The position numbers and the translations under genes were made by a program. A stretch of 39,041 nt of DNA, taken from the IMG/VR virus record IMGVR_UViG_3300029319_000151, positions 1 to 39,041 of that record. One strand, 5' to 3'. The first letter of the stretch is position 1, and each line of letters opens with the position of its first letter. A model generated the notes under the pieces. It made no database searches. It was not told where the DNA came from and saw only the letters and a list, made by a program, of their open reading frames with translations. Shown piece by piece: positions 1,468-37,274 of the stretch. This DNA is from a virus.

Positions 1468-1595
1468 CTTTACATTTAACTAGACGTTTACTAAAATTTT
1501 ATATATGCGTTTACGTACCTAGTTTTAAAGTGACTTGGCTAAGTAACGTAGCTTGCAAGAAAAAGCGTGAACGCTACAGAGACTATAGACTATGA
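1458..1595 (+). CDS. Small basic protein of 45 residues, unknown function
   Basis: An ATG at 1458 lies 10 bases after a strong ribosome binding site (AGGAGGG at 1441-1447) located inside the helicase gene. The 45-residue product starts with a hydrophobic/basic stretch (LTRRLLKFYICVYV) and ends with a very basic tail (KKKRERYRDYR). The stop overlaps the next ATG in an ATGA junction, so it fits the coupled operon. The N-terminal half could associate with a membrane, but no family is recognised. The ribosome binding site and the junctions are the evidence that it is real. Confidence 0.6.
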   Translation: MDLTLHLTRRLLKFYICVYVPSFKVTWLSNVACKKKRERYRDYRL

Positions 1596-2080
1596 ATATA
1601 TTTTACGTACATGAAGACCCAGCATATGCTGCTAGTTACTTACCAGATAAGTTAGTGGTTAAGATGCCTTTAGAGTCAGCTCAAATGCTTAGTACCGCAC
1701 ACCGTATACACTCAGGTGATGAATATTGTGATGCCCGTGGTATTTATAAAACTGCCTATAAAAATCATCCCTGCACTATATGGACTAGGGAAACTAGTGA
1801 TAACTATACTTGGTTATATAATCATTTTATTTTCTTATGTTACGAGTATGAAAGTAGGTATAACCGTGAACACTTAACGTTTACTAAGTTAGCTGACGAG
1901 TTAGGTAAGCTACCTAAAGGTATAAAGATAGCTGATATGACTGAGTTACCACAAGCTATGCCCGATCAATATAAAAATGATGACCCAGTGCAAGCTTACC
2001 GTGATTACGTAGTTAATGAAAAAACTTACGCACAGTGGAATAAAATACCAGACAGACAACCAAGTTGGTGGACTATATGA
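1592..2080 (+). CDS. Conserved phage protein of unknown function
   Basis: This 162-residue protein starts at an ATGA junction with the preceding small gene. It contains a well-defined stretch near residues 20-40 (VVKMPLESAQMLSTAHR), a Trp/Tyr-rich middle (SDNYTWLYNHF), and a C-terminal segment with AYRDYV and RQPSWW. Proteins with this pattern are familiar from marine phages, but I know no experimentally assigned function. The Trp-rich C-terminal end loosely recalls T4 endonuclease V-type glycosylases, which is only a guess. It sits directly before the DNA modification genes and overlaps the next gene by 4 bases, so it may be part of that pathway. Confidence 0.8.
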   Translation: MNIFYVHEDPAYAASYLPDKLVVKMPLESAQMLSTAHRIHSGDEYCDARGIYKTAYKNHPCTIWTRETSDNYTWLYNHFIFLCYEYESRYNREHLTFTKLADELGKLPKGIKIADMTELPQAMPDQYKNDDPVQAYRDYVVNEKTYAQWNKIPDRQPSWWTI

Positions 2081-2910
2081 GTAATTACCCTAAAACTGAT
2101 TTTAATAACTATATGATAGAGCGTCATAGCATATACGAACGTAGAGCTGAAGGTCAAGCTTATCCTTGGACTGATGACCTTATATTAAAAGAATATAGTT
2201 TTTGTAACGTGTACCGTGAACTAGATAGAGTCACTATATGGATAAGGGAAAACTGGCGTGAGCCTTACGCTGACCACCCTAACTTACCGTTCGCTATGGC
2301 TATGGCTAGGCAAATCAATTGGCCAGAGACATTAGAGGATATAGGATTCCCTGAACATTGGAACCCTAGTAGAGTTAAAGCTATAATGCAAGGTAGAATG
2401 GATAGAAAAGAAAAAGTTTATACAGGTGCCTATATGTTAACGGGAACCTTAGGAGGGACTAAAGTAGAGCAAACAGTGGATAAAATTCTCACCCCACTCT
2501 ACGAGTCCCCTCCTAGAATTATACCTAACTCATTAGAAGAAACATGGAAACGTTATCTACCGTATCCTGGATTTAGTGGTTTTATGGCGTATGAAGTAGT
2601 AACTGATTTACGACACACTAAACACTTAGAAAACGCTGAAGATATAATGACGTGGGCTAATCCTGGTCCAGGAGCTAAACGTGGACTAAATAGAATACAC
2701 CGTAGACCATTAGAAAAAAGCATACCTAAATCACAATTAATCAGTGAGATGAGAGAGTTACTAGAGTTATGTAACATGGCTCCTTTACCGTTAGAGATGA
2801 GGGATATAGAACATTGTTTATGTGAGTTTGATAAGTATGAAAGAGTACGGTTAGGTCAAGGTAAACCACGTGCTAAATATAAACCTAAACTACAGGAGGA
2901 GTTATTGTGA
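2077..2910 (+). CDS. 5-hmdU DNA kinase helical-domain / alpha-glutamyl-putrescinyl thymine pyrophosphorylase clade 2-like protein
   Basis: The ATG at 2077 forms an ATGA overlap with the previous stop; a TTG 12 bases upstream is less likely. The 277-residue product has the marks of the glycosylase-like helical family described in thymidine-hypermodifying phages: YSFCNVYRELDRVTIWI near residues 40-56, GFSGFMAYEVVTDLR near 165-179, a glycine-rich turn PGPGAKRGLNR near 196-206, and a late RDIEHCLCEFDKY segment. Family members are implicated in kinase, pyrophosphorylase or amino-acid transfer steps on 5-hydroxymethyluracil in DNA. No separate P-loop kinase domain is visible. The next genes encode a glycosyltransferase and a TS homologue, which fits a base-modification role. 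The exact chemistry cannot be read from sequence. Confidence 0.78.
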   Translation: MSNYPKTDFNNYMIERHSIYERRAEGQAYPWTDDLILKEYSFCNVYRELDRVTIWIRENWREPYADHPNLPFAMAMARQINWPETLEDIGFPEHWNPSRVKAIMQGRMDRKEKVYTGAYMLTGTLGGTKVEQTVDKILTPLYESPPRIIPNSLEETWKRYLPYPGFSGFMAYEVVTDLRHTKHLENAEDIMTWANPGPGAKRGLNRIHRRPLEKSIPKSQLISEMRELLELCNMAPLPLEMRDIEHCLCEFDKYERVRLGQGKPRAKYKPKLQEELL

Positions 2911-3704
2911 AAATTTATATACCTACAAGAGGCAGGGCTGACAACCAAGTAACGTTGTCTTTTTTCCCTGAGAGTATGCGTGAAAACGTTGTATTAGTAA
3001 TAGACGCTGATGAGGAGGAGCAGTACGTAAATAGTGACGGTCATTATAAATATATCTGTGAGTATATGGTAGTACCTGAAGACATAAAGGGTATATCTAA
3101 AAAGCGTCAATACATACACGAAAACACTACGGACAATAAAATAGTTATGTTAGATGATGACTTACGTTTTTATATACGTAAGTCTACTAATGATTGGCAT
3201 TTACGTTACTTAGAGCCTGATGAGTACCCTGCCTTATTCGGTTTATTAGATACTTGGTTAGATACTTACGCTCACGTAGGAGTGAGTGCTAGGGAAGGCA
3301 ATAACAGGGTAGAACACTTAGCCGTAGAAAACACAAGATACATGAGAGTATTAGGGTATAACCTAGATATGTTTGATGACGTTGAGTTAGGTAGAGTAGA
3401 AGTTATGGAAGACTTTGATATTAACTTACAATTATTACGTCAAGGTAAACCAAGTAAGATAAGCTACTATTACGCACAAGGTCAAAAAAGTTCTAATGCT
3501 GCTGGTGGTTGTAGTGAGTGGCGTACTATAGATGTACATAATGAGGGTGCTGAGCGTTTACACAACCTACACCCTGAGTTTGTTAAAATAGTAGAAAAAG
3601 AAACTAAAACAGCTTGGAACGGTATGCCTCGTAAAGACGTACAAGTACAATGGAAAAGGGCATTCAATAGTAGCCCAGATTTTAAACAAGGAGGATTATT
3701 CTAA
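2907..3704 (+). CDS. TET-associated-type (GT-A fold) DNA glycosyltransferase, probable
   Basis: GTG at 2907 is chosen because AGGAGG lies at 2894-2899 and the start overlaps the previous stop (GTGA). The 265-residue protein begins with a beta strand and PTRGR motif (residues 6-10), followed by a GISKKRQYI helix and then IVMLDDDLRF (residues 79-88), a DxD-type metal and nucleotide-sugar site typical of GT-A transferases. A later EDFDIN element (168-173) resembles the second acidic motif. This layout matches phage TAGT enzymes that add sugars to hydroxymethylated bases in DNA. Its place between a hydroxymethyluracil-linked protein and a TS homologue supports that substrate. Sugar donor and acceptor base are unknown. 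Confidence 0.72.
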   Translation: MKIYIPTRGRADNQVTLSFFPESMRENVVLVIDADEEEQYVNSDGHYKYICEYMVVPEDIKGISKKRQYIHENTTDNKIVMLDDDLRFYIRKSTNDWHLRYLEPDEYPALFGLLDTWLDTYAHVGVSAREGNNRVEHLAVENTRYMRVLGYNLDMFDDVELGRVEVMEDFDINLQLLRQGKPSKISYYYAQGQKSSNAAGGCSEWRTIDVHNEGAERLHNLHPEFVKIVEKETKTAWNGMPRKDVQVQWKRAFNSSPDFKQGGLF

Positions 3705-4705
3705 TGCAAGTAATAAATTGTCAAAACGTTAATGATGGGTTTATCAAAGCTCTTGACTTAATTAAAAATAACCATGTGGTTATAGGTAGTAGGGTAGGGG
3801 AAACACTAGAGTGTCCTACTCCTGTAACCACTGTTTATAACAACCCTACAGAAAGAGTTTTATTTGAAGAGATACGAGACGCTAACCCTTTCTTTCATTT
3901 TATGGAAAGTTTATGGATGTTAGAGGGTCGTAATGATTTAGCATACGTAAAAAGATACAATAAGCGTATGGAGGAATACAGTGATGATGGTGAAACTTTA
4001 TGGGGTGCTTACGGTTACAGGTGGATAAAACACTTTGGTAAAAATCAATTAGATTTAATAGTAAGTGAATTAAGATCTAACCCTAATAGCCGTAGGTGTG
4101 TGCTACAAATGTGGGACGCTAGTCAGGACTTAGGTAGGGACTGTAAGGACGTACCTTGTAATACCGCTATATACTTTAAGGTTAGGGAAGGTAAGCTTAA
4201 TATGACCGTTAGTAATAGGTCTAACGACGTTATATGGGGTACTTTTGGAGCTAACGTAGTACATATGTCCATATTACAGGAATATGTAGCCAGTGCTATT
4301 GGTGTTGAAGTAGGTAAGTATTATCAAATTAGTGATAGCTTTCATGTGTATACTAACATATTTAATGACATGTATCAAGATCTACAACGTGAAGATGCGT
4401 TTGATTTTTACTCTATGAAACATTATAATAACCCATATAACAATCAAGCACTTAAACCATACAAGATGATCAACACTGATATACCTACATGGACTGCAGA
4501 TTTACATAAGTTTTTAAACAGAGTGGCTTTTGGTGATAAGTTTTTTGATGACCCTTTTTTCACTAAGGTCGCTTGTCCCCTACAAGACGCTTGGTACTTA
4601 TATAAACAAAAAGAGTATGACTTTAGTTTACATGAAGTACAGTGTTGTGAAGCAGGTGATTGGGCGTTAGCAGGTTTTGATTGGATTAATAGAAGGTTAA
4701 AATGA
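3704..4705 (+). CDS. Thymidylate synthase family protein, probable dUMP/dCMP hydroxymethylase
   Basis: A 333-residue ThyA-superfamily protein whose ATG overlaps the previous stop (TAATG). Catalytic Cys152 lies in DVPCNTAIYF, and the nucleotide-binding NRSNDVIWG (171-179) continues into TFGANVVHMS. In cellular thymidylate synthase the corresponding segments read PCH and RSxDxxLGxPFN. The altered PCN and GTFGAN signatures resemble phage enzymes that transfer a hydroxymethyl rather than a methyl group, giving 5-hydroxymethyl-dUMP or -dCMP. The late ISDSFHVYTN segment is the equivalent of the conserved HxYxNH region. Co-occurrence with hypermodification genes favours the hydroxymethylase reading, but an ordinary thymidylate synthase cannot be excluded. 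The base (U or C) is undetermined. Confidence 0.85.
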   Translation: MQVINCQNVNDGFIKALDLIKNNHVVIGSRVGETLECPTPVTTVYNNPTERVLFEEIRDANPFFHFMESLWMLEGRNDLAYVKRYNKRMEEYSDDGETLWGAYGYRWIKHFGKNQLDLIVSELRSNPNSRRCVLQMWDASQDLGRDCKDVPCNTAIYFKVREGKLNMTVSNRSNDVIWGTFGANVVHMSILQEYVASAIGVEVGKYYQISDSFHVYTNIFNDMYQDLQREDAFDFYSMKHYNNPYNNQALKPYKMINTDIPTWTADLHKFLNRVAFGDKFFDDPFFTKVACPLQDAWYLYKQKEYDFSLHEVQCCEAGDWALAGFDWINRRLK

Positions 4706-5394
4706 GTGGTAAAATACCTCAGTGGTCTTACAGTAGACTAACTACGTATGAGGGTTGCCCTAAAAAAGCCTACTACAGCTCAGTTAAAAAGATAAGAGAG
4801 CCAGGAAATAAATACATGGAACGTGGTAAAGAAGTTCATAAAAACTGTGAGAATTATATAAGAGGTCACATAGAAGAACTACCAACTACACAGCTTAAAG
4901 ATTTTCAAATGGGTTTTGATGAGTTACGTAGAATGTATTTAGAAGGCTCAGTAATATGTGAAGGTGATTGGGCTTTTGATAAAGAGTGGTCAACTACAGG
5001 TTGGTTTGACCCAGACACATGGGGCAGAGCTAAGGTTGATGCTTTTGTACACGACGCTAGTCAGCCTACACAAGCCAGAGTTATAGATTTTAAAACAGGT
5101 AAATACGAAGGTAACCAAGAAAGCCATAGAGAACAGTGTGAATTATATGGTGCGGTTGTGTTAGCTAGATACCCAGAAGTAGAAACCATAGTAACGGAGA
5201 TGTGGTATTTAGATCATAATAAAATAGAACGTTACATGTATAACCGAGACAGCATAAAGGCACGTAAAGAAAAGATAAATGACCGTGCTATTATCATGAC
5301 CACTGCTGAAGAGTTTCCAGCTAACCCCAGTAGTTTTAAATGTAAGTGGTGTTATTACGGTAAAGAAAAAATATGTGCAGACAGATATGATTAA
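4702..5394 (+). CDS. Cas4/RecB-like PD-(D/E)XK exonuclease with Fe-S cysteines
   Basis: A 230-residue protein coupled to the previous gene by ATGA. It carries the RecB-nuclease signature: His45 in KEVH, Asp113 in GRAKVDAF, VIDFKTGK with Asp129 and Lys131, and QxxxY (Gln145 to Tyr149). Four cysteines are placed as in Cas4 and AddB nucleases, one N-terminal (Cys19 in YEGCPKK) and three C-terminal (Cys214, Cys217, Cys225), suggesting a 4Fe-4S cluster holding the nuclease fold together. It probably resects DNA in replication or recombination alongside the upstream helicase. There are no CRISPR genes nearby, so an adaptation role is not implied. Confidence 0.87.
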   Translation: MSGKIPQWSYSRLTTYEGCPKKAYYSSVKKIREPGNKYMERGKEVHKNCENYIRGHIEELPTTQLKDFQMGFDELRRMYLEGSVICEGDWAFDKEWSTTGWFDPDTWGRAKVDAFVHDASQPTQARVIDFKTGKYEGNQESHREQCELYGAVVLARYPEVETIVTEMWYLDHNKIERYMYNRDSIKARKEKINDRAIIMTTAEEFPANPSSFKCKWCYYGKEKICADRYD

Positions 5395-5953
5395 GTTTAT
5401 TAAAGGACATTTTAAAAACAGTGACCCCAATATAAAAGACTGGGACGAGCCTACTATACGTGAGTTTAACGGTAAAAAAGTGGTGGGTAGACCTACTAAG
5501 GGATACGGTAGTAGCACGTTTACGTATGCGGGTAAAACCTATGAGCCCACACCGTGGACTACGTCTATGTATAAAATAAGGTTAGGCGTAGAAGCGTTAA
5601 TAAATAAAGAGTGTACGTTTTGTCTTTGTGGGTATTACGGTGAAGACGGTAAAGGTTTACCGCATCACAGTGATACAGTACCCACGTTAGATGATTTAGT
5701 AGTATCAATATCTTTTGGTGGTCCTAGAGTTTTTCAGTGGCGTGAATATCATTACGATATAAAAGAAAAGACAGACACTAGTGAAGTTAAGTTTGATTGT
5801 TACTACAACACACCGCCAGCAACTAATTATATACTGGAACATGGTGACGTCATAATCTTTGACGGTCATAGTCAGATGCGCTCTACTCATGCGGTACTGC
5901 CTATGGAACATGCTACAGAACGTATAAACTTAACTTTTAGGACAGGTATTTAA
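5387..5953 (+). CDS. AlkB-like 2-oxoglutarate/Fe(II) dioxygenase
   Basis: The ATG at 5387 overlaps the previous stop by 8 bases; an in-frame GTG at 5375 is an alternative start. Counting from the ATG, the iron ligands are His94 and Asp96 (HHSD) and His168 (STHAV), and the C-terminal RINLTFR (179-185) is the AlkB-type arginine motif binding 2-oxoglutarate. SISFGGPRVFQW and LEHGDVIIFDG match the family's core strands. AlkB proteins remove alkyl lesions from DNA or RNA bases by oxidation. Here the gene sits in a base-modification operon, so oxidation of a modified base is an alternative to repair. The fold is clear; the substrate is not. Confidence 0.88.
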   Translation: MIKFIKGHFKNSDPNIKDWDEPTIREFNGKKVVGRPTKGYGSSTFTYAGKTYEPTPWTTSMYKIRLGVEALINKECTFCLCGYYGEDGKGLPHHSDTVPTLDDLVVSISFGGPRVFQWREYHYDIKEKTDTSEVKFDCYYNTPPATNYILEHGDVIIFDGHSQMRSTHAVLPMEHATERINLTFRTGI

Positions 5954-5967
5954 TAATAGGAGAAAAT

Positions 5968-6279
5968 ATGAAAGAAGGTAGTGATTTTAATTTAATAGCA
6001 CAATTAGGTGTAAAAGATACTAACCATTTAGAGTTAGCCCAAAAAACGTATGGTGACAGTTGGCGTAGTAGAGGTGGCGTAGGTGCTTTTATGATGCTGG
6101 CTCGTAAGTGGGACAGGTTAGAAAACCAGTGTAAGGAAGAAGGTTATGACGTGTTTTCAGCCATAGCTAAAAACCCCAGTATCACAGGTGTACTAGATGA
6201 TATACGTGACTTACGTAGATATCTATTATTAGTTGAAGCCCATATGATAGAGGAATTAACCGCTGATAAAAATGATTAA
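5968..6279 (+). CDS. Small conserved phage protein, possibly nucleotide-modification-associated (Nmad1-like)
   Basis: A 103-residue protein preceded by a good ribosome binding site (AGGAGA at 5958-5963). The central block contains YGDSWRSRGGVGAFMML, followed by ARKWDRLENQ and a C-terminal helix DDIRDLRRYLLLVEAHMI. This order (YGxSW, then a helix with KxxRL, then DxxDLxxY) resembles the small all-helical Nmad1/DUF1599 type proteins found beside DNA modification genes, but I assign this only by eye. Its location between the AlkB-like gene and the nucleotidyltransferase agrees with that idea. It overlaps the next gene by 8 bases. A plain hypothetical protein is the fallback. Confidence 0.55.
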   Translation: MKEGSDFNLIAQLGVKDTNHLELAQKTYGDSWRSRGGVGAFMMLARKWDRLENQCKEEGYDVFSAIAKNPSITGVLDDIRDLRRYLLLVEAHMIEELTADKND

Positions 6280-6679
6280 GGGTATAACTTTTAGTGCGTT
6301 TGATTTATTCCACGCTGGGCATGTAAGTATGCTACGGGAAGCTAATGAACAATGTGATTTTTTAACAGCCTGTATACACGTTGACCCCAGTAAAGAGAAT
6401 AAAGAAAAAAATAAACCAGTGCAGAGTTTACTAGAAAGACAACTACAAGTAAAAGCCTGTAGGTATGTTGATGATGTGTTAGTTTATTCAACGGAAGAAG
6501 ATTTATTAAACATACTTAGAACTGTTCCGTGGGACGTAAGGATTATAGGTGAAGAATACTATAACAAAGACTTTACTGGTAAGGAAGAGTTTGACGGCTT
6601 ACACAGTAAAAGAATTTATTATAACGAAAGAAAACACACGTTTAGTAGTACAGAATTAAGAAAAAGATGCAAGACCTAA
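6272..6679 (+). CDS. TagD-like cytidylyltransferase family protein
   Basis: A 135-residue HxGH-class nucleotidyltransferase. FDLFHAGH (residues 10-17) is the nucleotide-binding signature, and FSSTELRKR near the C terminus is the second conserved motif, the ISSTxLR equivalent. The length matches glycerol-3-phosphate cytidylyltransferases, which make CDP-glycerol. ERQLQVKACRYVDDV also fits the family. In this operon it could activate a small phosphate compound for transfer to DNA or to the virion, but the substrate is not shown by sequence. The gene overlaps its upstream neighbour by 8 bases and the polymerase by 13, so it is co-translated with both. Confidence 0.85.
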   Translation: MIKGITFSAFDLFHAGHVSMLREANEQCDFLTACIHVDPSKENKEKNKPVQSLLERQLQVKACRYVDDVLVYSTEEDLLNILRTVPWDVRIIGEEYYNKDFTGKEEFDGLHSKRIYYNERKHTFSSTELRKRCKT

Positions 6680-8559
6680 CACAAGTTCCTATGTCTTTGT
6701 TCACGCCCGAGGTGGATTGGTCTCCTCCTAGCGACTTACCTGAGTTAAGTAATTATCAGGAAGTCGCCATAGACCTTGAGACACATGACCCTTTGCTCCT
6801 GTCTCATGGTCCATCTTGGGCATTCGCTGATACTGGTCACGTAACTGGTATAGCTGTAGCTACTAAAGACTTTAGTTATTATTTTCCTATAGGTCATAAG
6901 GGTGGTGGTAACCTAGATGAAGGCTTAATAAAAAGGTGGTTGACTAAACAACTGTCTTACAATAACGATAAAATATTTCATAACTCTCTATATGATTTAG
7001 GTTGGCTAAAACGTATGGGTATAGAAGTAAACGGTAAGGTACACGATACTATGTTTGCGGCACCTCTTATAGATGAGAATCAATATGGTTATTCATTAAA
7101 TAAACTAGGGGAAAGATATGTAGGCGAGGTAAAGGATGAGAGTTTACTAAAAGAGGCAGCATCCGCTTACGGGCTTGACCCTAAAAAAGATATGTGGAAA
7201 TTACCAGCTAAGTATGTTGGTGTATACGCTGAACAAGATGCAGCACTCACTTTAAAATTATGGGAAATATTTAAGGAACTACTAAGGTTAGAAAACGTTG
7301 AAGCCATATATGAATTAGAAACTAGCCTCATACCTATACTACTAGAGATGAGATATAAGGGTGTACCAGTAGATTTAGATAAAGCTGAAAAGGTGGGTAA
7401 ACAATTAAAGAAAGAGGAAGTAGGTATATTAACCAATATTAAAAAAGAACATGGAGTTTACCCCGACCTGTGGGCTGCAGCCTCTGTTGCTACAGTGTTT
7501 GACAGAGCTGGGTTAAGTTATCCACGTAGCCCTAAACTCAACGCACCTAGTTTTACTTCAGCTTGGTTAGAAAGTCATGACAGTAAATTAGCTAAAGACA
7601 TAGGTAGAGCACGTAAACTCAATAAAGCTAGAACTACTTTTATAGATAAGATGATATTAGAACATAGCGTAAACGGTAGAATACATGGTGAACTACACCC
7701 GTTACGTAGTGATACTGGCGGTACAGTCACGGGTAGATTTAGTAGCTCTAACCCTAACCTACAACAAGTACCAGCTAGACATGATATGATTGGACCTTTA
7801 GTTCGTAGTGTGTTTGTGCCTGAAAAAGATCATTACTGGGGATGTTTTGATTACTCACAACAAGAGCCCAGACTTACTGTACACTATTCAGCTGCAACAC
7901 AACAAAAAGGTGCTGACGATGCTGTAGATGCGTATAGAAATAAAAACGCAGACTTTCACCAAATAGTAGCAGATATGGCTAATATAAGCCGTAAGGAAGC
8001 TAAGGTTATTAATTTAGGACTAAGCTACGGTATGGGTAAAGACAAGCTTATAAGTCAGCTAGGTATATCACCGTTAGAAGCTGAAGAGTTATTTGAAACT
8101 TACCACAGTAGAGTTCCTTTCATCCGTGGACTACGTGACCAGTGTGCTAGGTTAGGTAGTAATAGAGGTTATATTGTTACGTTACTAGGTCGTAAGTGCA
8201 GGTTTAACTTATTTGAGCCCACCTTTGAACGTAAAACTCCGTACCCGTATGAAGAGGCAGTAGAACGTTACGGTGAAAAAGTTAAACGTGCTTTTACATA
8301 TAAAGCTATGAATAGATTAATACAAGGGTCAGCAGCAGACATGACTAAAAAAGCCATGGTTGATTTATATAAAGAGGGCTACCTACCTCATACACAAGTA
8401 CATGATGAATTAGATATATCTGTAGCTGATAAAAAACAATGTGAAGAGATAATACAAATTATGTCTGATTGTGTAAAAATAAAAGTGCCTAACTTAGTTG
8501 ATGCAGAAATAGGTAACAGCTGGGGAGAGGCTACGGTTAATTATGAGGAGTTTTTTTAA
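6667..8559 (+). CDS. polA: Family A DNA polymerase with 3'-5' proofreading domain
   Basis: A 630-residue replicative polymerase. The exonuclease domain has AIDLETHD (Asp36, Glu38), IFHNSLYDLGW (Asn106, Asp110) and YAEQDAALTL (Tyr187, Asp191). Polymerase motifs are TGRFSSSNPNLQQVP, motif A FDYSQQEPRL (Asp395), motif B RKEAKVINLGLSYG (Arg442, Lys446, Tyr454) and motif C QVHDELDI (His579, Asp580, Glu581). There is no 5'-3' exonuclease domain, as in other phage enzymes of this size. Leu450 occupies the place of E. coli Phe762, a change linked with slower, more accurate synthesis and temperate-like phages. The start overlaps the cytidylyltransferase gene by 13 bases. Confidence 0.97.
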   Translation: MQDLTQVPMSLFTPEVDWSPPSDLPELSNYQEVAIDLETHDPLLLSHGPSWAFADTGHVTGIAVATKDFSYYFPIGHKGGGNLDEGLIKRWLTKQLSYNNDKIFHNSLYDLGWLKRMGIEVNGKVHDTMFAAPLIDENQYGYSLNKLGERYVGEVKDESLLKEAASAYGLDPKKDMWKLPAKYVGVYAEQDAALTLKLWEIFKELLRLENVEAIYELETSLIPILLEMRYKGVPVDLDKAEKVGKQLKKEEVGILTNIKKEHGVYPDLWAAASVATVFDRAGLSYPRSPKLNAPSFTSAWLESHDSKLAKDIGRARKLNKARTTFIDKMILEHSVNGRIHGELHPLRSDTGGTVTGRFSSSNPNLQQVPARHDMIGPLVRSVFVPEKDHYWGCFDYSQQEPRLTVHYSAATQQKGADDAVDAYRNKNADFHQIVADMANISRKEAKVINLGLSYGMGKDKLISQLGISPLEAEELFETYHSRVPFIRGLRDQCARLGSNRGYIVTLLGRKCRFNLFEPTFERKTPYPYEEAVERYGEKVKRAFTYKAMNRLIQGSAADMTKKAMVDLYKEGYLPHTQVHDELDISVADKKQCEEIIQIMSDCVKIKVPNLVDAEIGNSWGEATVNYEEFF

Positions 8560-13477: not shown

Positions 13478-13992
13478 TGTCTACACGAGCCGTTTATACG
13501 TTTCATTCTGTAGCTTCCCCTGAGGGAGCTACGGATAGAAACCCTATAAGCATTTATAAGCACCATGACGGTTATCCGTCGGGTGCTTTAGGTTTTTTAT
13601 CCAACGCGTCATTATATTGTACTGACCACGTTAAGTTTACCACCTGCTCTTACGTTGATACTAATTTTGGTGAAGTAGAACCTATCACCGTAGCCAGTGT
13701 GCGTGACCAGTTTGTATTAGGGTTTATGATGGACCGAGCTAACGGAGGGCATAAATACTTTACTCCGTCGCCCGAGGCACACGGTGATATAGAATACGCC
13801 TACAATATTTACGTAGAGGATTTTAATAAAGCCGAAGAGCCTAACTACAACCCAGTAATAGAAATTATGTCCGTATATACTGGGCTGAGTGATAATTATT
13901 CACAAAACCATAAGTACGAGTTAGTGGCTAAAGACACTCTTGATAAACTGTACGCAGATTTAATAAACGGTAAGGACTATGAAACAGGATAG
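13477..13992 (+). CDS. Conserved phage protein of unknown function, 171 residues
   Basis: The ATG overlaps the previous stop (TAATG) and follows AAGGAG at 13465-13470. The N-terminal sequence STRAVYTFHS followed by ISIYKHHDGYPSGALGFL is a pattern I know from many phage and some bacterial hypothetical proteins. HHDGYP contains possible metal or catalytic residues, and the C-terminal third is acidic. No enzyme activity is established for the family as far as I know. It is followed by MazG with a 14-base overlap. Confidence 0.8.
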   Translation: MSTRAVYTFHSVASPEGATDRNPISIYKHHDGYPSGALGFLSNASLYCTDHVKFTTCSYVDTNFGEVEPITVASVRDQFVLGFMMDRANGGHKYFTPSPEAHGDIEYAYNIYVEDFNKAEEPNYNPVIEIMSVYTGLSDNYSQNHKYELVAKDTLDKLYADLINGKDYETG

Positions 13993-14305
13993 TTTATACT
14001 ACGGTGACTCTACCATAACGGACATAGTAAAGTGGGCAGAAGACCGAGGTCTTTTGTCCGCCAAAGACAATGAAGCTAAGAGTGCACAGTTAATAAAACT
14101 CACGGAAGAAGTAGGTGAGTTAGCTAGAGCGTTTAGTAAGAAAGACAGGTGGGACTTAGTAGATTCAATAGGGGATTGTATGGTTGTGTTGATAGTTATT
14201 GCCTATCAGCACGACCTTACTGTTGAAGAGTGTTTAAGTAAAGCCTACGAAGAAATAAAAGACCGTAAAGGCGTTCTAAAAGATGGTTATTTTATTAAGG
14301 AGTAA
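13979..14305 (+). CDS. mazG: MazG-like nucleotide pyrophosphohydrolase
   Basis: A 108-residue all-alpha NTP-PPase domain. Metal ligands are expected in LTEEVGELARA (Glu43, Glu44, Glu47) and VDSIGDCMVVL (Asp62, Asp66), followed by the usual C-terminal helix AYEEIKDRKG. Proteins of this family hydrolyse non-canonical or regulatory nucleotides to monophosphates and are frequent in marine phages, where they were proposed to alter the host starvation response or nucleotide pools. In a phage with modified bases, pool cleaning is an alternative. Asp at position 62 replaces the more common Glu. Confidence 0.9.
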   Translation: MKQDSLYYGDSTITDIVKWAEDRGLLSAKDNEAKSAQLIKLTEEVGELARAFSKKDRWDLVDSIGDCMVVLIVIAYQHDLTVEECLSKAYEEIKDRKGVLKDGYFIKE

Positions 14306-33086: not shown

Positions 33087-36000
33087 ATGGCAACATATGT
33101 AAATGATTTAAGGTTAAAAGAAATAACCACGGGAGATGAGTCAGGTACTTGGGGAGACTCTACTAATACTAATTTAGAGTTAATAGCAGAGGCGTTTAGT
33201 TTTGGCACTGAAGCTATAACAACTAACGCAGATACACATACTACCACTATTGCAGACGGCTCTACCGATCCAGGTAGATCTATTTATTTAAAATACACAG
33301 GTACACTTGATTCAGCTTGTACCATAACTATAGGACCTAACACCGTATCTAAACTATGGTTGATTGAAAACGGTACATCAGGTTCACAAAACATTATTAT
33401 TTCTCAAGGATCTGGCGCAAACGTCACGATTCCAGCAGGTCATGTAAAAGCTGTATATTCAGACGGAGCAGGATCTGGTGCAGCTATAGTAGATGCTTTT
33501 ACTAACTTAAATCTAGGTGGTACTACTACGGTTGATGATTTAACAATCTCAGACGATCTAACAGTTACAGATGACATGACTGTTGGTGGCACATTAGGAG
33601 TTACAGGTGTTGTAACTGCAAACGCAGGTGTAGTCGTAGATAACATTACTATAGATGGCACAACAATGACTTTAAGTTCTAGTGATCTAACGTTAGATGT
33701 TGCAGGAGATATTGTTCTTGATGCAGATGGTGGTGATGTAATATTCAAAGATGCTGGAAGTTCTATAGGTCGTTTAAGAAATGTCTCAGGTAATTTTGTT
33801 ATTAAATGTGAAGGCTCAGACGACGATTTAAAGTTTTTAGGTAATGATGGTGGTAGTGAAATAACTGCCCTTACCTTAGATATGTCAGCGGCAGGTGCAG
33901 CTACCTTTAATGACAAGATTATAGCTACAGAATTAGACATTTCAGGCGATATAGACGTAGACGGAACAACTAACCTAGACGTAGTAGATATAGATGGTGC
34001 TTCTAACTTTGGAGCAAACGCTACTTTTGTAGATGGCATAAGAGCTAATTTTGGTACGGGTGAAGATTTACAAATATCACATACAGGTAGTAATAGTTTA
34101 ATAGCTGATACAGGAACTGGTGATTTAAAAATAAGAGCTAATGATTTAAAACTAGAAGCATACGCATCAGAGGATAGTTACATAACTATGGTTGATGGTG
34201 GTGCTGTAACTTTATTTCACGATAACAGTTCTAAACTAGCCACAACAAGTTCAGGTGTAGATGTTACAGGTACAATCAATGGCGTAGGTATATCTTCTAA
34301 TATTACTAACTTTTCTAGTAGTATATTAATAAGTCAAGATGGAAGTACAGGTACATTATCTTCTGCTAGTGATAATACAGGTTTAGGCACAAGTGTTTTT
34401 GATGATTTAACATCAGGTACAAGAAATACTGCTGTAGGGTCAGGTGCATTTGATGTACTAACTACAGGAGCACAAAATGTTGCGATAGGTAGAGCTGCAG
34501 GTGGTTCTCTTACAACGGGTGATGACAGTGTATTTTTAGGAGAAAGAGCAGGTTCATCTACAACTACAGCTAGTGATAATACGGGTGTTGGACAAGCAGC
34601 ATTACTTTCTAATACAACGGGTGCTAATAACACAGCTTTAGGTAGTGGAACTTTACAAGAAAACACAACAGCTTCTAATAATACTGCTTTAGGATTTGAA
34701 GCCTTAAATGACAACACTACAGGTACACAAAATACTGCTCTAGGTTCTCTAGCTTTAGATGCCAATACAACAGCTGACGGAAATACAGCTTTAGGTTATA
34801 GTTCTTTATCAGCTAATACAACTGGTGCTCAAAATACTGGAGTTGGTAGAAATTCTCTTGATGCTAATACTACTGCAAGTAATAATGTAGCACTTGGTTA
34901 TAATGCATTATTATTAAACACTACAGGAACTCAAAATACAGCAGCAGGTTCTTTATCTTTAGATGCTAACACAACTGGCGATGCAAATGTAGCATTAGGT
35001 TATCAAGCGTTAAGTGCTAATACTACAGCAGACAACAACGTAGCAATTGGTACTAATGCTTTATTAGTTAATACTACTGGAGCTGGAAATATTGCAATAG
35101 GTAAAGGAGCTCTAGATGCAAATACTACTGCTGATAATAATGTAGCAGTAGGTACTTCTGCCTTAACAGCAAACACTACAGGTACTAACAATGTAGCAGT
35201 AGGTGCTCTTTCATTAGATGCGAATACTACTGGACAAAATAATTCAGCTTTTGGTAAATCTGCTTTAAGTGCAAACACCGAAGGTAACGCTAATGTTGCA
35301 TTAGGTATATCGGCATTATTATCTAACACAACAGGTAGTGATAATACAGCAGTAGGTGCTGTAGCTTTAAATGATAACACCACAGGAGTTGATAATACTG
35401 CTGTAGGACATGATGCACTTAAATCAAATACTGAAGGTGATAGTAATGTTGCTGTAGGTTCTCATGCTTTAGATGCAGCTACAACAGCATCAAATAATGT
35501 AGCTATAGGTACAAACGCAGCAGGTGCTATTACTACAGGTAATGTTAATGTTGCTATTGGTAATTCAGCGATGGTTACAAACACCGTTGGCGATAGAAAT
35601 GTAGCTGTAGGTCATCAAGCTTTGAGAACATATAATCCTGCTAGTAATGAAGATTCATACAATATAGCAATAGGTTATAACGCTTTATTTGCTGATACCA
35701 CAGGAGCTTTTAATACTGCTGTAGGTGGATTAGCCCTAGATGCTAATACTACTGCTGATAATAATACAGCTATAGGTTATACAGCTTTATCAAGCAATAC
35801 AACAGGAGCTAGTAATACAGCAGTTGGAGCTGGTGCTTTAGTAGCAAACACAACATCAAACAGTAATACTGCTGTAGGTTTTGATGCTTTAAATGACAAC
35901 ACAACAGGTGAAAATAATACTGCTATAGGTGCAGGAACTTTAGATAAAAACACCACAGGAAGTTTTAATGTTGCATTAGGTTCAGCAGCTTTAGATGCTA

Positions 36001-37274
36001 ATACTACTGCTGGAAATAATTTAGCTATTGGTTACAATGCTTTGAGTGCAAACACCACAGGTGATTTAAATATTGCAATTGGAAACAATGCGTTAGATGC
36101 TAATACTGAAGGTGATAGGTCTTTGGCTATAGGTTATAACGCATTAACTAATCAAAATCCTTCTAGTAATGCAGATATGTATAATATAGCTATTGGACAT
36201 AATGCAGGTGCTGGAATTACCACAGGTGTTGTAAATACTATTATAGGTGGTCTTGCAGGAGATTCTTTATCAGATGCAGACCATAATGTAGCAATAGGTT
36301 ATCTTTCTCTTACTGCTGATACCTTAGGAAGTAGAAGTGTAGCTATTGGTAGAGGAACTTTAGCTTCACAAAATTTTACAACTGCTACCGATACTTATAA
36401 TACTGCAGTGGGTTATGCAGCAGGTAATGACATAACCACAGGTACACAAAATACTTTTATTGGTGGATTAGCAGGTGATGCTAATACTACTGCTGATAAT
36501 AATACAGCTATAGGTTATAATTCTTTAGGTGCTAATACTACAGGAGCTGACAATACTGCTGTTGGTACTCAAGCTTTAAGTTCATGTACAACTGGTGGTA
36601 GTAATACAGCAGTTGGCACACTTGCAGGAACGTCTGTGACAACAGGTGTTCTCAACACTTTAATTGGAGATGATGCAGGTGATTCTGTAACCACAGGAGA
36701 TAGTAATACACACATAGGTGCTTCTGCAGGTGCTGAAATATCTAGTGGAAGTGGTAATATTTGTATTGGTAAAGATTCAGGTACTACAGGCTCTCCTACT
36801 GGAGGATTAACTGGTGAAAATAATATTATATGTTTAGGTGATGAAAATATTACAGCTGCACATATGCAAGTAAGTTTCACAGTAGCATCAGACAAAAGAG
36901 ATAAAACAGATGTAGAACCTATAAAAATGGGATTAGACTTTGTAAACAAATTAGAACCTGTAACATATAAATGGGATAAAAGAAGTTTATATGTTGAAAA
37001 AGGTGAAGATTTTGTAGATATTGAACCAGATGGAACACATAAAGAAGATTGGTTAGATGTAGGATTTCTTGCTCAAGATGTTGAAAAACTTGAATCAGAG
37101 TATGGTTATAATATAGCTGATAAAACAAACCTTACAACTACATTAACAGGAGATGGTAATCAATATGGATTAACCTATGAAAAGTTTGTACCTATGTTAG
37201 TAAAATCAATTCAAGAACTTTCTACACAAGTAGATGAATTAAAAACTGAAATTAAAATTCTAAAGGAGGAATAA
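33087..37274 (+). CDS. Long tail fibre with 17-residue repeats and S74 chaperone domain
   Basis: A 1395-residue fibre, the largest gene here. Residues 1-110 form a conserved fibre start (LRLKEITTGDESGTWGDSTN) likely to attach to the tail. A beta-rich region follows with DITIDGT and DGGDVIFKDAG-type elements. Residues 430 to about 1232 hold 46 full 17-residue repeats and one partial, in the style NTAVGYxALxxNTTGxx, related to YadA head repeats. The C terminus is a Peptidase_S74 intramolecular chaperone starting at Ser1268-Asp1269 (SDKRDKTDVEP), which trims itself off after trimer assembly. The C-terminal coiled coil is STQVDELKTEIKILK. Host binding is the expected role. Confidence 0.93.
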   Translation: MATYVNDLRLKEITTGDESGTWGDSTNTNLELIAEAFSFGTEAITTNADTHTTTIADGSTDPGRSIYLKYTGTLDSACTITIGPNTVSKLWLIENGTSGSQNIIISQGSGANVTIPAGHVKAVYSDGAGSGAAIVDAFTNLNLGGTTTVDDLTISDDLTVTDDMTVGGTLGVTGVVTANAGVVVDNITIDGTTMTLSSSDLTLDVAGDIVLDADGGDVIFKDAGSSIGRLRNVSGNFVIKCEGSDDDLKFLGNDGGSEITALTLDMSAAGAATFNDKIIATELDISGDIDVDGTTNLDVVDIDGASNFGANATFVDGIRANFGTGEDLQISHTGSNSLIADTGTGDLKIRANDLKLEAYASEDSYITMVDGGAVTLFHDNSSKLATTSSGVDVTGTINGVGISSNITNFSSSILISQDGSTGTLSSASDNTGLGTSVFDDLTSGTRNTAVGSGAFDVLTTGAQNVAIGRAAGGSLTTGDDSVFLGERAGSSTTTASDNTGVGQAALLSNTTGANNTALGSGTLQENTTASNNTALGFEALNDNTTGTQNTALGSLALDANTTADGNTALGYSSLSANTTGAQNTGVGRNSLDANTTASNNVALGYNALLLNTTGTQNTAAGSLSLDANTTGDANVALGYQALSANTTADNNVAIGTNALLVNTTGAGNIAIGKGALDANTTADNNVAVGTSALTANTTGTNNVAVGALSLDANTTGQNNSAFGKSALSANTEGNANVALGISALLSNTTGSDNTAVGAVALNDNTTGVDNTAVGHDALKSNTEGDSNVAVGSHALDAATTASNNVAIGTNAAGAITTGNVNVAIGNSAMVTNTVGDRNVAVGHQALRTYNPASNEDSYNIAIGYNALFADTTGAFNTAVGGLALDANTTADNNTAIGYTALSSNTTGASNTAVGAGALVANTTSNSNTAVGFDALNDNTTGENNTAIGAGTLDKNTTGSFNVALGSAALDANTTAGNNLAIGYNALSANTTGDLNIAIGNNALDANTEGDRSLAIGYNALTNQNPSSNADMYNIAIGHNAGAGITTGVVNTIIGGLAGDSLSDADHNVAIGYLSLTADTLGSRSVAIGRGTLASQNFTTATDTYNTAVGYAAGNDITTGTQNTFIGGLAGDANTTADNNTAIGYNSLGANTTGADNTAVGTQALSSCTTGGSNTAVGTLAGTSVTTGVLNTLIGDDAGDSVTTGDSNTHIGASAGAEISSGSGNICIGKDSGTTGSPTGGLTGENNIICLGDENITAAHMQVSFTVASDKRDKTDVEPIKMGLDFVNKLEPVTYKWDKRSLYVEKGEDFVDIEPDGTHKEDWLDVGFLAQDVEKLESEYGYNIADKTNLTTTLTGDGNQYGLTYEKFVPMLVKSIQELSTQVDELKTEIKILKEE
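34374..36782 (+). repeat. Tandem 51-base coding repeats of the tail fibre
   Basis: The 17-residue units correspond to 51-base repeats: 46 complete units plus the start of a 47th, spaced exactly except for three 4-residue insertions (after NP or NF: PASNEDSY, PSSNADMY, FTTATDTY). Nucleotide similarity varies along the array, with GATGCTAATACTACTGC-type stretches almost identical in several units. Such repeats invite recombination and length change. Confidence 0.85.

Follow-up and report, generated by a model that had tools for sequence, protein, structure and literature searches.

Phages of the M6/PaMx11 type encode, near DNA polymerase A (PolA), a dUMP hydroxymethylase and the helical protein HMUDK_hel, and combine them with a P-loop 5-hydroxymethyl-2'-deoxyuridine (5-hmdU) DNA kinase (PF18748), an amino-acid:DNA transferase (ADDT, PF18724) and radical SAM and pyridoxal phosphate (PLP) tailoring enzymes. 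In pelagiphages of the HTVC023P type, a thymidylate synthase (TS), an 'aG/PT-PPlase1', a 5'-deoxynucleotidase and a beta-glucosyl-HMC-alpha-glucosyltransferase were reported near PolA (PMC9599517, mSystems 2022), and the announcement of the Brevibacterium phage LuckyBarnes (NC_047851) suggested DNA modification by a dCMP-hydroxymethylase together with two glycosyltransferases. Here we describe a cassette at positions 2077-6679 of the IMG/VR virus record IMGVR_UViG_3300029319_000151 (39,041 nucleotides, analysed as a whole and called the window below), in which HMUDK_hel and a predicted dUMP hydroxymethylase are joined by a TAGT glycosyltransferase. The cassette is real and conserved, and it is most likely a variant of phage 5-hmdU hypermodification, by glycosylation. 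We hold with moderate confidence that it serves to replace thymine by 5-hmdU, which would then be glycosylated after replication to a base-J-like product.

The window comes from a phage near the HTVC023P-type pelagiphages, as its terminase is 61% identical to that of Pelagibacter phage HTVC027P. The host group of such pelagiphages is SAR11, abundant ocean bacteria. A 62-kb sister contig (L153), which shares 98.7% identity with the window across the cluster, has a curli operon like some members of the group: at 1933-6737 it encodes the type VIII secretion proteins CsgF and CsgG, together with FecR and a CHASE2-adenylate cyclase. The pelagiphage 'aG/PT-PPlase1' would correspond to HMUDK_hel, since the same name stands on the HMUDK_hel genes of deposited M6-like phages. 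The pelagiphage clusters were treated as M6-like with possible extras (PMC9599517); here, in contrast, kinase and ADDT were not found and a TAGT replaces the kinase. LuckyBarnes has a TS homologue (ThyA), two TAGTs and HMUDK_hel in adjacent genes (ThyA-TAGT-TAGT-HMUDK_hel, gp41-gp38) and likewise gives no kinase or ADDT match, although its HMUDK_hel is just 28% identical to that of the window, the TAGT is doubled and the ThyA is longer. Given the pelagiphage report and the LuckyBarnes gene set, the cluster itself is therefore a known sighting. The initial annotation of the window, which did not recognise the combination, was right that the kinase is truly missing, but the combination had largely been reported before. 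What is new here is that kinase and transferase are missing, that the kinase-to-glycosyltransferase swap is repeated and that the hydroxymethylase is assigned to dUMP.

The dUMP assignment rests on the third gene of the cassette (3704..4705, + strand, 333 amino acids; Thymidylat_synt 7e-26, PHROG 5131 1e-122). The structure of the T4 dCMP hydroxymethylase showed that an Asp at position -3 from the catalytic Cys marks hydroxymethylation, where thymidylate synthases have Leu, and that Asp179 is the determinant for dCMP (PMC6400193). The window protein has the Asp at -3 (D149-VP-C152-N153) and an Asn, N184, at the position of T4 Asp179; D149, C152 and N184 are invariant in 31 homologues, and the same signature is common to M6, PaMx11, Bordetella MW2, LuckyBarnes and the SPO1-like Goe26. 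Of the controls, a T-even dCMP hydroxymethylase has D at the N184 position and the E. coli TS has L at -3. The LuckyBarnes ThyA thus reads as dUMP-type and not as the dCMP enzyme of its announcement. The closest named relatives of the window protein belong to M6-like phages (47% identity to M6 gp58 over 99%). Most likely, judging from these residues, it is a dUMP hydroxymethylase that makes 5-hmdUMP. One could argue that it is an ordinary TS which raises the dTMP supply, in a nucleotide-metabolism cluster without any DNA modification, as the Pfam label Thymidylat_synt and the frequency of thymidylate synthases in marine phages would have it. We regard this as very improbable: the Asp at -3 and the Asn directly after the catalytic Cys, both missing from the E. 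coli TS, are shared with M6, PaMx11 and Goe26, the best solved-structure relatives are CMP hydroxymethylases, and the gene is in dedicated linkage to HMUDK_hel and TAGT. Microbacterium phage Guetzie is an exception to the association of HMUDK_hel with dUMP-type enzymes; its locus (L093, 1950-5883) combines HMUDK_hel and a P-loop gene with a hydroxymethylase that has dCMP-type residues (D..CT, YRAD).

The gene directly upstream (2907..3704, + strand, 265 amino acids) encodes the TAGT, a GT-A glycosyltransferase that scores 82 bits against a cut-off of 27.5 for PF20691 (1e-22). Its acidic DDD motif, D83-D85, is invariant in the relatives and in a T-even TAGT. No beta-glucosyltransferase (PF09198) was found in the window or its relatives, while the T-even control matched; the alpha-glucosyltransferase profile (PF11440) matched nowhere, although no positive control matched either. 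With this limit on the alpha-glucosyltransferase search, no DNA-modifying glycosyltransferase family other than TAGT was detected here. The simplest reading of the gene content is that it would transfer a sugar directly to 5-hmdU. The TAGTs of T2 and T6 share the family and the DDD motif, but they act after an alpha-glucosyltransferase on glucosylated hydroxymethylcytosine (glucosyl-hmC) derived from a dCMP hydroxymethylase, whereas the window has the dUMP type. Base J of kinetoplastids, beta-D-glucosyl-hydroxymethyluracil, would belong to the same product class, O-glycosylated 5-hmdU. The starting point for base J is thymine already present in DNA, on which JBP oxygenases and then another glucosyltransferase act, whereas the 5-hmdU of the window phage would come from the nucleotide pool.

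We compared 80 IMG/VR loci encoding a HMUDK_hel relative, the counts including the window's own fragment and two control phages where they match. TAGT and ThyA are present in nearly all of these loci, a co-occurrence well beyond chance, and a homologue of a 103-residue protein of the cassette is found in 79 loci (and in 59 of 61 TAGT-type loci). In relatives at 55-57% identity, HMUDK_hel, TAGT, ThyA and the small protein are all retained even though the replication module is a different one, and where core genes are adjacent they often overlap by 1-4 bases. A dUTPase or a YfbR-like 5'-nucleotidase located in related cassettes also speaks for 5-hmdU-based modification. The thymidine hypermodification via 5-hmdU proposed in the initial annotation is well supported. 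It could still be that the phage DNA contains 5-hmdU alone and that the TAGT acts on a tail glycan, the host surface or another protein, being linked to the other genes by chance or history. 5-hmdU by itself suffices in phage SP8 (PMC7653180), and TAGT is part of the broad GT-A superfamily. However, HMUDK_hel, TAGT and ThyA occur together in nearly all relatives, often with the short overlaps, the exchange of kinase and TAGT is repeated, and the T-even relatives of the TAGT act on DNA (PMC13216743), so that we find this explanation improbable.

In named isolates, HMUDK_hel is mostly a direct neighbour of the P-loop 5-hmdU DNA kinase, and an ADDT lies close by. Neither PF18748 nor PF18724 was found in 31 related virus records, which include the 62-kb sister contig, and both profiles matched the controls M6 and Sonora. 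The window's cluster also has neither radical SAM nor PLP tailoring enzymes. The initial annotation, which saw no P-loop kinase in the window, advised looking for a DNA kinase or an acyltransferase in the sequence before base 1; on the sister contig this region holds replication, structural and curli genes, and no kinase profile matched. When partners were counted at HMUDK_hel loci flanked by 3.5 kb or more in both directions, 61 had only a TAGT, 23 only a kinase, none had both (at the stricter thresholds) and 3 had neither. On a HMUDK_hel tree (54 proteins, a quick search with some long branches) the TAGT label needs at least four changes, and the starred branches force four, which indicates that the TAGT type arose or was lost several times. 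LuckyBarnes with L104, L117, L120 and a marine group that includes the window form separate TAGT-type lineages. TAGT, as read from these gene sets, occupies the place of the kinase, and the missing kinase is no gap in the predicted pathway.

HMUDK_hel itself (2077..2910, + strand, 277 amino acids, all-helical) scores 161 bits against a PF18723 cut-off of 25 (4.9e-47) and is 42-44% identical to proteins of M6-like phages (42% to M6 gp55). Its AlphaFold (AF2) model has a pLDDT of 90 and matches the HMUDK_hel models of phiRSL1, PhiW-14 and SP10 with TM scores of 0.73-0.84. Some 26 residues reach a conservation of at least 90% among the TAGT-type as well as among the kinase-type proteins, and type-specific residues are very few; this suggests, as far as conservation can tell, one unchanged role beside both partners. 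In Bacillus phage Goe26 kinase and HMUDK_hel are a single open reading frame. We infer that HMUDK_hel is a DNA-binding protein which presents 5-hmdU to its partner transferase. A sequence search with HMUDK_hel against solved structures gave no match. The fold search in the PDB gave weak matches, first the glycinyltransferase PUGT (8z2n), which acts on 5-phosphomethyl-2'-deoxyuridine (5-PmdU), and then AlkA, 8-oxoguanine glycosylase and RuvA, and a DNA-glycosylase-like fold is therefore no more than a hint. The T4 beta-glucosyltransferase glucosylates 5hmU only if it is single-stranded or opposite G (PMC4111573), and an enzyme working on 5hmU:A pairs may thus need help in handling the base.

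Several observations weigh against direct glycosylation of a 5-hmdU presented by HMUDK_hel. The described TAGTs of T2 and T6 put a second sugar on glucosyl-hmC and not on a bare hydroxymethyl base (PMC13216743). Phage ctUhy936 has a TAGT and a hydroxymethylase with no HMUDK_hel match near them. IMG/VR records may be incomplete, which weakens the absence of kinase and ADDT, and in locus L112 kinase and ADDT are accompanied by a partial TAGT match above the Pfam cut-off but below the stricter threshold, so the mutual exclusion of kinase and TAGT is not absolute. In Hyphomicrobium chromosomes HMUDK_hel accompanies a dUMP-type hydroxymethylase and the small protein, and neither kinase nor TAGT was found across the whole Hyphomicrobium genomes; HMUDK_hel may therefore have an activity of its own. 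The fold that it shares with ADDTs makes a transferase role conceivable. Accordingly, one might see in HMUDK_hel an ADDT-fold transferase that adds a nucleophile to 5-hmdU, the TAGT glycosylating the adduct or some other site and the result being an amino-sugar-like base. The looser resemblance of its predicted structure to those of viral ADDTs (TM about 0.55, E 6.5e-5), the weak match to 8z2n, the older gene name aGPT-Pplase and the Hyphomicrobium cassette would agree with that. On the other hand, the known ADDT-type transfer requires a phosphorylated base and no kinase was found in the TAGT-type genomes, most kinase-type phages have a separate ADDT beside HMUDK_hel, and the fusion to the kinase implies a role as kinase helper. 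We therefore judge a HMUDK_hel transferase unlikely, though not as improbable as a TAGT that acts away from DNA.

The Hyphomicrobium loci (L157 6103-9727, from the chromosome of Hyphomicrobium sp. CS1BSMeth3; also L156, L158 and L163) encode a long homologue of the 103-residue protein next to HMUDK_hel and the hydroxymethylase, and in L157 a gene of the uracil-DNA-glycosylase family stands directly 5' of them. Such a cassette may serve DNA modification or defence in the cell itself.

If the window cassette glycosylates 5-hmdU, its TS homologue would turn dUMP into 5-hmdUMP, cellular kinases would raise it to 5-hmdUTP and the phage PolA would incorporate it. After replication HMUDK_hel would bind the DNA and expose 5-hmdU, as was proposed for the kinase in M6-like phages, and the TAGT encoded next to it would move a sugar from a nucleotide-sugar to the 5-hydroxymethyl group. 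The resulting O-glycosyl-5-hmdU would shield the DNA from nucleases. The small helical protein would probably trim the dNTP pool, and lineage-specific genes (nucleotidyltransferase and AlkB here; FkbM, GT61 and radical SAM elsewhere) may alter which donor is used or modify the sugar further. A more general proposal, which we put forward only tentatively, is that HMUDK_hel is a 5-hmdU-presenting subunit for interchangeable transferases, and that with TAGT in a large group of marine phages it leads to O-glycosylated 5-hmdU, a phage counterpart of base J, which in some lineages would be O-methylated, carry a second sugar or receive a nucleotidyltransferase-derived donor. Solitary TAGTs whose substrate is unexplained occur in 288 of 753 phage genomes (PMC13216743). 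With HMUDK_hel and the dUMP hydroxymethylase staying constant while kinase and TAGT repeatedly trade places, both the TAGT substrate and the action of HMUDK_hel can be tested directly. If the proposed pathway is true, glycosylated thymine-derived DNA would be present in phages that infect the most abundant bacteria of the ocean, which bears on the sequencing and the restriction of marine viral DNA.

The genes that may diversify the sugar are patchily distributed. FkbM methyltransferase genes occur in five TAGT-type loci of at least two lineages versus none of the kinase-type loci. In L078 (9109-12148) FkbM, an acyl-carrier-like protein, a radical SAM-SPASM protein and a GT61 lie between HMUDK_hel and TAGT, and L155, from a Patescibacteria bin, has at least FkbM and radical SAM genes. 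The presence of FkbM, GT61 and radical SAM-SPASM in TAGT-type loci fits the decoration of a sugar; radical SAM-SPASM is also found in the kinase-type L112.

The 103-residue protein (5968..6279, + strand, all-helical) is counted as a core partner on the basis of its conservation across loci. With Pfam families assigned by matches above the curated cut-offs, it is the only one of the seven cassette proteins without a family, and none of 39 homologues matches Nmad, as which it had been labelled, or any other Pfam family. Several top Foldseek matches of its model are MazG-type pyrophosphatases, all weak with E above 2, and the protein is possibly a MazG-like dNTP pyrophosphatase. Elsewhere in the window, a MazG-family pyrophosphohydrolase gene lies at 13979-14305, 3' of the replication genes (PF03819, 3.5e-7).

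The layout agrees with the compact operon of overlapping genes described initially: seven genes on the + strand fill 2077-6679, mostly with overlaps of a few bases, and all are under purifying selection (dN/dS 0.06-0.28). That description counted six genes, having missed a PD-(D/E)XK/Cas4-like exonuclease (4702..5394, +; PDDEXK_1, PF12705, 6.8e-17) which belongs to the replication module and not to the modification core; no match to it was found in L078, L079 and L081, distant relatives that bear the core. The HMUDK_hel-like, TAGT-type and TS families named there were all recovered by the profile searches above cut-offs, and the PCN and GTFGAN motifs are present at residues 151-153 and 179-184 of the TS homologue. 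It also placed in the operon an AlkB-like oxygenase and a TagD-like cytidylyltransferase, whose families hold. These are a 2OG-Fe(II) oxygenase (5387..5953, +, alternative GTG start at 5375; 2OG-FeII_Oxy_2, PF13532, 6e-18), with iron-binding residues present as judged by eye, and a TagD/RfaE-like nucleotidyltransferase of 135 amino acids with a HAGH motif (6272..6679, +; CTP_transf_like, PF01467, 7.9e-15). Because of their distribution (30 loci with AlkB, 21 with the nucleotidyltransferase) both were ruled out as core members and are counted as accessory.

At the nucleotide level, 2077-6679 had no match among named phages, and a scan for promoters and terminators found no more sites than in shuffled sequences. 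The cassette is flanked on its 5' side by a gene for a pyrimidine dimer glycosylase-like protein (1592..2080, +; PF03013, 3.1e-10), a repair neighbour outside the core, and on its 3' side by that for PolA (6667..8559, +; PF00476, 1.6e-56). Far downstream, at 33087-37274, the window encodes a probable tail fibre of 1395 amino acids with many short NTTGxxNTAxG-like repeats.

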